Shown one piece after another: positions 53,144-56,175 of a stretch of DNA of 64,000 nucleotides; position 1 is the first letter of the stretch, and every line of letters starts with the position of its first letter. Source of the DNA: Acidobacteriota bacterium. Its GTDB lineage: Bacteria; Acidobacteriota; Terriglobia; Acidiferrales; UBA7541. The notes under the pieces are model-generated. The model was given only the letters and a program-made list of their open reading frames with translations, was not told the origin of the DNA and did no database searches. The DNA is taken from contig JAJPIE010000012.1 of assembly GCA_021324935.1 (NCBI GenBank), positions 248,001-312,000 of the forward strand, written 5' to 3'. The position numbers and the translations under genes are program-made.

Positions 53144-55360
<2,217 letters not shown>

Positions 55361-55444
55361 GGCCTTTTCCAGTCGTCACGATTACGAAATCTTAGGCGGG
55401 AAACTGCAAATGAACTGTCTCACGCGGTGGAGGAAAGGGAAGCC

Positions 55445-55473
55445 AGGCCCGTGGGGACTCGAACCCCAGACCT
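55445..55473. repeat. 29-bp direct repeat, copy 1 (copy 2 at 55761-55789)
   Basis: Identical 29-bp copies, 316 bp apart, corresponding to the T-arm and 3' acceptor strand of tRNA-Val. They bracket the GIY-YIG ORF, like the attachment-site duplications left by elements that insert at tRNA 3' ends. Confidence 0.85.
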
Positions 55474-55517
55474 GGCCGACTCGGTCGGCCCGCTCTAACC
55501 AGCTGAGCTTCCGATGA
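55445..55517 (-). pseudogene. Chimeric tRNA remnant
   Basis: Read on the minus strand it has a normal tRNA D-arm (AGCTCAGCTGGTTAGAGC), T-arm and 3' acceptor strand identical to the neighbouring tRNA-Val. The 5' acceptor strand (TCATCGG) does not pair with CGGGCCT, no CCA follows, and the anticodon arm is replaced by a 7-bp hairpin with a CGA triloop (55474-55490). A working tRNA is therefore unlikely. The stop codon of the GIY-YIG ORF lies inside its D-arm. Confidence 0.7.
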
Positions 55518-55746
55518 GTGCGTGGATCAGTTTGGCGGACTTCCATTTCTTTATTTCCAATTCTCGGCGTCGCGCTTCGAGCAACGAAGCGAAGTCCCCT
55601 TTGTAGACGAGCTTCCATGGGCCTCTACCTCGCGTCGATGGCGTGTGCCCCCGGTGATGTTCGCTCAGGCGGCGGTCCAGATCGTCCGTCGACCCGACAT
55701 AGAACTGGCCGGATGTTTCGCTCTGAAGAATGTAAAGGGTGCCCAT
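55495..55746 (-). CDS. Small GIY-YIG endonuclease-domain protein
   Basis: An 83-residue single-domain GIY-YIG protein: LYILQS (GIY), FYVGSTDDLDRRLSEH (YIG with the catalytic Arg) and the conserved Glu helix RRRELEIKKWKSAKLI. Single-domain members resemble UvrC/YhbQ-type nucleases, and some are mobile. The start lies 10 bases after the CCA end of tRNA-Val with no Shine-Dalgarno. The last residues IGSSAG are encoded by the D-arm of the tRNA remnant. Its tight framing between tRNA sequences suggests a tRNA-associated mobile cassette (inference). Confidence 0.8.
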   Translation of the reverse strand: MGTLYILQSETSGQFYVGSTDDLDRRLSEHHRGHTPSTRGRGPWKLVYKGDFASLLEARRRELEIKKWKSAKLIHALIGSSAG

Positions 55747-55756
55747 CAGGAAGGAA

Positions 55757-55833
55757 TGGTAGGCCCGTGGGGACTCGAACCCCAGACCTCTACCGTGTCA
55801 AGGTAGCGCTCTAACCAACTGAGCTACGGGCCT
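55757..55833 (-). tRNA. tRNA-Val (GAC)
   Basis: A full cloverleaf on the minus strand: acceptor AGGCCCG/CGGGCCT, T8-A9, D-arm GCTCAG...GAGC, anticodon stem CTACC/GGTAG with loop TTGACAC giving anticodon GAC, T-arm TGGGGTTCGAGTCCCCA, discriminator A and encoded CCA. 77 nt including CCA. Confidence 0.96.
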
Positions 55834-55851
55834 GCAACCTTTTTAAGAATA

Positions 55852-56175
55852 TCACGCCTCGCTCCGCCTGAGAATTTCGTCCACTGCTTCTAATTCGTGC
55901 TCCGATTGCGGTTGCCAGGCTGCGCCCAGAACCCCAAGTGTCCGTTGCATCTCATGCAGCGGCCGTCCCGCGAGGGCTTGCCGCAAGGCATGCCACTCAT
56001 CCCTTATATTTCGAATCTGATCTCCGCTCGCATCAGCCACCAACGCCGCAATCGCCTTCTCCGCGGATCCGTACTCCTCCCCAAAATCTTGATGGAGATA
56101 AGCCGGCAAAAACTCCAGGAGGGCCGGATAATCTCCCGGATCGAAAGCCGCCTTTCTATTCTGCTCGTGCGTCAT
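55852..56175 (-). CDS. CdiI-like immunity protein
   Basis: A 107-residue cytoplasmic protein resembling contact-dependent-inhibition immunity proteins: YPALLEFLPAYLHQDFGEEY near the N-terminus and a helical remainder (IAALVADASGDQIRNIRDEW). The ATG at 56175 has GGAGGCGAGGGA directly upstream and overlaps the stop of the upstream toxin gene by ATGA, the expected toxin-then-immunity order. Its presumed role is to bind and neutralise the RNase A-like toxin. The longer reading from 56256 lies within the toxin gene and is rejected. Confidence 0.75.
   Translation of the reverse strand: MTHEQNRKAAFDPGDYPALLEFLPAYLHQDFGEEYGSAEKAIAALVADASGDQIRNIRDEWHALRQALAGRPLHEMQRTLGVLGAAWQPQSEHELEAVDEILRRSEA

Follow-up and report, generated by a model that had tools for sequence, protein, structure and literature searches.

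A small GIY-YIG nuclease cassette behind a tRNA-Val gene in an Acidobacteriota genome, probably a minimal homing element specialised on one isoacceptor

Why should a single short nuclease gene lie between an intact tRNA gene and a broken copy of the same tRNA, and is such an arrangement mobile? The locus that raises this question sits in a 64,000-nucleotide stretch of an Acidobacteriota genome, here called the window. The first-pass annotation, made from the sequence alone, had described a tRNA-Val(GAC) gene followed closely by a GIY-YIG open reading frame (ORF) that ends inside a second tRNA-like sequence, with an exact copy of the tRNA 3' end and a D-arm, and had proposed a minimal mobile cassette that uses the tRNA 3' end and encodes only the endonuclease. 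All of these structural elements were recovered (Table 1), and between the repeats we found the 83-aa ORF only, with no integrase gene. The perfect 7-bp hairpin that takes the place of the remnant's anticodon arm was not in that annotation.

Table 1. Features of the cassette, in window coordinates
Feature	Position	Strand	Evidence
Intact tRNA-Val(GAC), 3' end with first repeat copy	55757..55833	-	ARAGORN, Rfam RF00005
First 29-bp repeat copy, within intact tRNA	55761..55789	-	sequence
Spacer from tRNA to start codon, 10 bp	55747..55756	-	sequence
GIY-YIG nuclease ORF, 83 aa, ATG start, stop TAG	55495..55746	-	Pfam PF01541
D-arm remnant AGCTCAGCTGGTTAGAGC, overlapping ORF end	55492..55509	-	sequence
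Perfect hairpin GGCCGAC-CGA-GTCGGCC replacing anticodon arm	55474..55490	-	covariation across 13 loci and predicted fold
Second copy of 29-bp tRNA-Val variable-loop/T-arm/acceptor-3' sequence	55445..55473	-	exact repeat of 55761-55789

The tRNA-Val(GAC) gene is the sole tRNA called by ARAGORN in the window (Rfam RF00005, 71.8 bits), and this intact copy gave the only full-length match in the assembly. The repeat is exactly 29 bp long with an offset of 316 bp. Because the longest repeat in 300 shuffles of the 600-bp region averaged 7.3 bp and never exceeded 17 bp, a 29-bp repeat is beyond chance. The remnant consists of the D-arm, the hairpin and then the 29-bp copy, without a 5' acceptor strand, and the stop codon of the ORF is located in its D-loop. 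It is not a tRNA, given that ARAGORN made no call and that the best Rfam match was a tRNA-like family below threshold. ARAGORN reads the intact tRNA-Val as contiguous, and cmscan of 55300-56000 returned no intron family up to E = 1; the ORF is therefore not surrounded by intron RNA as in a group I intron. The same genome holds the start of a second cassette, in which a tRNA-Ala(GGC) is followed after 13 bp by a GIY-YIG N-terminus at the end of contig C26 (L010). The matching C-terminal part lies at the end of contig C95 (L008), and the assembly probably broke between the two.

The ORF matches the Pfam GIY-YIG domain (PF01541) at 7.4e-14. Y5, Y16, G18, R26, H30 and E62 were invariant among 14 aligned members, which includes the conserved Tyr, Tyr, Gly, Arg and Glu of the superfamily (Y5, Y16, G18, R26, E62). 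Purifying selection acts on the ORF core, with dN/dS of 0.05-0.15 in pairs that allowed an estimate of dS (several are saturated), and the AlphaFold model is confident (pLDDT 86). By sequence, the closest solved relatives are PDB 1zg2 (4.5e-17), 1ywl (9.5e-14) and 7cq2 (2e-7), which are UPF0213/SLX1-type proteins. SLX1 is a DNA structure-specific nuclease, and the UPF0213 proteins are uncharacterised. To our knowledge these are encoded by ordinary genes that are not tied to tRNA genes, unlike the cassette ORF, which adjoins one. The window protein had no match among plasmid records.

We investigated the distribution of the nuclease by a protein search of 399 genomes of the window's class and found relatives in 167 of them. 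From these genomes and other fetched loci, 120 ORFs were classified. An intact tRNA stood beside 66; in 53 cases the ORF was behind an intact tRNA on the same strand (at most 60 bp upstream of the ORF), with a median spacer of 12 bp, and 13 showed a mirror layout, in which a 5' tRNA remnant and the ORF precede the intact tRNA. A further 18 carried direct repeats of at least 18 bp, mostly tRNA fragments. The remaining 36 had no tRNA nearby, several being contig ends or displaced copies and others forming separate clades. A search for the ORF beside other tRNA genes, suggested by the first-pass annotation, was thus productive: within the class the adjoining genes are those for Val(GAC), Ile(GAT), Ala(GGC, CGC), Arg(ACG, TCT) and Ser (four anticodons), together with Met, Asn, Lys, Gly, Pro and Trp.

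The cassettes are not confined to this class. Using a 14-member profile to search the class of a Verrucomicrobia metagenome-assembled genome (MAG), we found relatives in 81 of 146 genomes, and part of the loci fetched from there had the same anatomy at Pro, Ala, Ser, Arg, Thr, Asn, Asp and Leu tRNAs. Three of these loci (L245, L246, L247) are tandem arrays of several units. In L245 (G481:C2:287000-291500), several near-identical nuclease units with a period of ~378 bp follow a tRNA-Leu(UAA).

Individual loci showed variations on this layout. In the mirror loci L076, L083, L095, L096, L102, L093 and L112, the hairpin-bearing tRNA copy comes first and the intact tRNA last, and in mirror-layout cassettes the repeat can take in the upstream flank of the tRNA. 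At L068 (G252:C91) the neighbouring tRNA-Ile is inverted and the remnant is not, a layout that suggests a break-induced inversion. Two different cassettes, L078 and L088, carry nearly the same TTGTCCAGCCC[AG]GAGAC about 10 bp after the remnant, probably an insertion sequence end.

If the cassette is mobile, related genomes should include empty sites. Within the genus, neither cassette nor repeat was present at most tRNA-Val(GAC) loci, and in three genomes decayed ORF starts were observed behind tRNA-Val (L020, L026, L036). We had considered the tRNA-Val locus of G020 as the empty counterpart of the window, but dropped it because synteny holds on the tRNA-upstream flank only, and turned instead to a sister cassette at tRNA-Ala(GGC), the one filled/empty pair for which net insertion and duplication are seen. 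In this pair, G007 (L171) is filled and G010 (L169) is empty, the flanks are ~87% identical on both sides, and the filled allele has ~302 extra bases. The duplication in G007 runs from the AGGTC after the anticodon arm to the CCA, plus ~12 bp past the CCA with small differences. The insertion position is fixed and uninvaded alleles exist in relatives, as expected of a homing gene. The arrangement is thus not ancestral and fixed in all relatives, which would have contradicted the earlier proposal, and mobility at the tRNA 3' end is borne out by the tRNA neighbourhood, the empty sites and this pair, with movement by the nuclease as the likely cause.

The same data make it very improbable that the ORF is a non-mobile housekeeping nuclease of the UPF0213 type that came by chance to stand next to tRNA genes, with repeats produced by local tandem duplication. 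Kinship with the widespread UPF0213 proteins and the tandem duplications seen at cassette loci would fit that view, but presence is patchy, empty sites are clean, the filled/empty pair contradicts this explanation, and the ORFs stand at many different tRNAs and are sorted by lineage according to isoacceptor.

This sorting was seen in a tree of 113 nuclease relatives, whose deep forks are unsure since it rests on only 90 columns. Isoacceptor labels changed 32 times along the tree, whereas shuffles gave 79 changes. All 19 Val cassettes, which come from several host families, fall in one clade of 20 rows, and the twentieth row is the second tandem unit of L048. Cassettes at Ile, Arg(ACG), Ala(GGC), Ser, Met and Trp tRNAs also cluster. 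The enzyme lineage is therefore tied to its target site, another property of homing genes. We also compared each remnant with tRNAs of the same isoacceptor and left out of the means any locus with more than 6 differing bases in its remnant. Remnants had a mean of 0.76 mismatches in 29 nt to the tRNA of their own genome, versus 4.19 to those of other hosts. The repeat is thus made from, or homogenised with, the local target tRNA.

Intact tRNA at one border and a duplicated tRNA 3' end at the other are features that the cassette shares with tyrosine-integrase elements, of which such duplications are a hallmark. The cassette might accordingly be a passenger that is mobilised in trans by tyrosine integrases whose attachment sites are the same tRNA 3' ends, in which case the GIY-YIG protein would have another role. 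Integrase elements do occupy the same tRNA-Val genes (PF00589 Phage_integrase lies beside the intact tRNA-Val of G160), and they displace the 3' half from the anticodon loop onward. They are, however, kilobase-sized and carry an integrase gene, whereas the cassette encodes only the 83-aa nuclease. The cassette repeat of Val, Ile and Ala loci starts at position 45, after the anticodon arm, in contrast to the displaced halves, which start at 26-33, at or near the anticodon loop. The nuclease phylogeny, moreover, follows the isoacceptor as expected of a specificity factor. We consider the passenger explanation unlikely.

Several Val cassettes (L053, L060, L067, L077) follow a tRNA 3' half whose first base is at position 26-33 and which lacks the 5' half. 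Ectopic transposition of these cassettes, in which they would have jumped to sites outside tRNA genes, was considered and dropped, because displacement by tyrosine-integrase elements in the same tRNA fits: in G160, the intact tRNA and an integrase lie 6 kb away. At L270 (G160:C82), L028 (G014:C6) and L281 (G164:C38), tyrosine-integrase elements also use tRNA-Val(GAC). Their crossover is close to the anticodon loop, and they separate both the 3' half and the nuclease cassette from the rest of the gene by kilobases.

In the Val, Ile and Ala families the hairpin directly follows GAGCG and directly precedes AGGTC. In the Arg(ACG) family the 5' anticodon strand and the anticodon give way to it, and in the Leu array, judging by the L245 repeats, every pseudo-tRNA carries it within the anticodon loop. 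Across 13 equal-length cases, 98.9% of cells were paired versus 82% in shuffles, and four of the seven pairs showed two-sided changes; the window hairpin folds as predicted. The hairpin is thus kept as a stem. No T-run follows it. We rejected the idea of a dispersed genomic palindrome, since the excess in the window was weak (20 vs 13.7 shuffled) and no repeat family was found. Further GC-rich palindromes (for example CCCTTCGG...CTCAGGG) were observed in the remnant T-loops of L049, L055, L079, L098, L069 and L101, where they adjoin the conserved hairpin.

A hairpin conserved by covariation, a change in the remnant exactly at the anticodon arm or within the anticodon loop, and specificity for isoacceptors would also suit a toxin resembling an anticodon nuclease that acts on tRNA, with the hairpin-bearing pseudo-tRNA as decoy or immunity RNA. 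We find this quite improbable: the relatives of known structure comprise DNA structure-specific nucleases such as SLX1 alongside the uncharacterised UPF0213 proteins; a mechanism at the DNA level is required in any case to account for empty sites and target duplication; and the window remnant, lacking a 5' acceptor strand, is unlikely to be a stable tRNA mimic.

Taken together, we favour as probable the reading that the cassette is a minimal free-standing GIY-YIG homing-endonuclease cassette specialised on one tRNA isoacceptor gene, in which the nuclease would move the cassette itself. The most likely first step is a cut by the GIY-YIG enzyme in the matching tRNA gene of a chromosome without the cassette; repair would then insert ~300 bp comprising the ORF, a D-arm-like stretch, the GC-rich hairpin and a second tRNA 3' part. 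The 5' half of the target tRNA would stay joined to an intact 3' half, so that the essential gene survives the insertion, and the other 3' half would become a dead downstream remnant. The hairpin in this dead copy probably blocks recognition and recombination as a tRNA gene; the simplest proposal is that it shields the surplus copy from recognition, cutting or gene conversion. The ORF probably shares a transcript with the tRNA, from which 3' processing of the tRNA would release it 6-20 nt upstream of the start codon. Observations in support of this mechanism are the insertion relative to an empty allele, the tRNA 3' duplication, isoacceptor-bound lineages, selected catalytic residues, the covarying hairpin and tandem arrays.

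Several points count against the homing model. In the filled allele the intact tRNA keeps every tRNA base and may thus stay open to cutting by the enzyme, and it is the remnant that is altered at the anticodon arm. Homing across species should leave donor bases in the first copy, and instead both copies match the local host, which would imply conspecific donors, target duplication at insertion, or later gene conversion. GIY-YIG enzymes normally make short staggered cuts, and these do not alone explain a duplication of 30-45 bp. The 36 of 120 related ORFs without a nearby tRNA are a further point against the model.

How does the cassette relate to known systems? SegB of T-even phages is its closest functional parallel. 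SegB is a free-standing GIY-YIG homing endonuclease encoded in a phage tRNA gene cluster that cuts inside tRNA genes and drives tandem amplification, and the 3' end of segB has short homology with the 5' region of a tRNA (PMC13096335, and Brok-Volchanskaya 2008 cited therein). The two thus share the GIY-YIG fold and a gene beside tRNA genes. SegB is phage-borne and is reported to lack a preference for particular tRNA isotypes, whereas the cassette is chromosomal and isoacceptor-bound; a duplicated tRNA 3' end with a hairpin-replaced anticodon arm, as the cassette has, is not reported for SegB in the available part of that paper (PMC13096335). No similarity to phage Seg proteins was detectable: when 50,697 phage records were searched by tblastn, the window protein had no match at 1e-5.

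The fungal mitochondrial mORFs (Allomyces macrogynus atp6; Glomus atp6, atp9, cox2 and nad3) are endonuclease ORFs in essential genes that bring a replacement 3' end and leave the native 3' end downstream as a remnant (PMC3630166). The cassette likewise replaces the 3' end of a gene and leaves a remnant. The mORFs differ in that they invade protein genes, encode mostly LAGLIDADG enzymes, and insert a diverged, foreign 3' end without a hairpin, whereas the two copies in the cassette both match the local tRNA, as the means of 0.76 mismatches to own and 4.19 to other hosts indicate.

In the literature searched, coverage of which was incomplete, we found no description of this cassette. The cassette is real and widespread and looks mobile, like a very small selfish element. 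It is best seen as a variant of the free-standing homing endonuclease elements, although it may deserve to be treated as a separate class of minimal mobile element. In its fullest form, which we put forward tentatively and at somewhat less than even chances, this reading would be of a new class of very small autonomous element consisting of one ORF of ~80-95 codons and a terminal hairpin. Such an element would enter tRNA genes, duplicate 30-45 bp of the target, leave the tRNA functional and tag the surplus copy with an anticodon hairpin, and it would have diversified by isoacceptor in two or more bacterial groups.

Phages are known to carry free-standing homing nucleases at tRNA genes. The form described here is chromosomal and ~300 bp long, and it is frequent both in Acidobacteriota and in the class to which a Verrucomicrobia MAG belongs, mostly with one enzyme lineage per isoacceptor. 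Duplication of the 3' end is its solution to the problem that the invaded gene is essential. The cassettes provide a natural set of small nucleases whose specificity for tRNA genes is graded, and they make testable how such enzymes avoid their own host gene. Part of the numerous short GIY-YIG ORFs and tRNA pieces found in draft genomes may also be explained by them.
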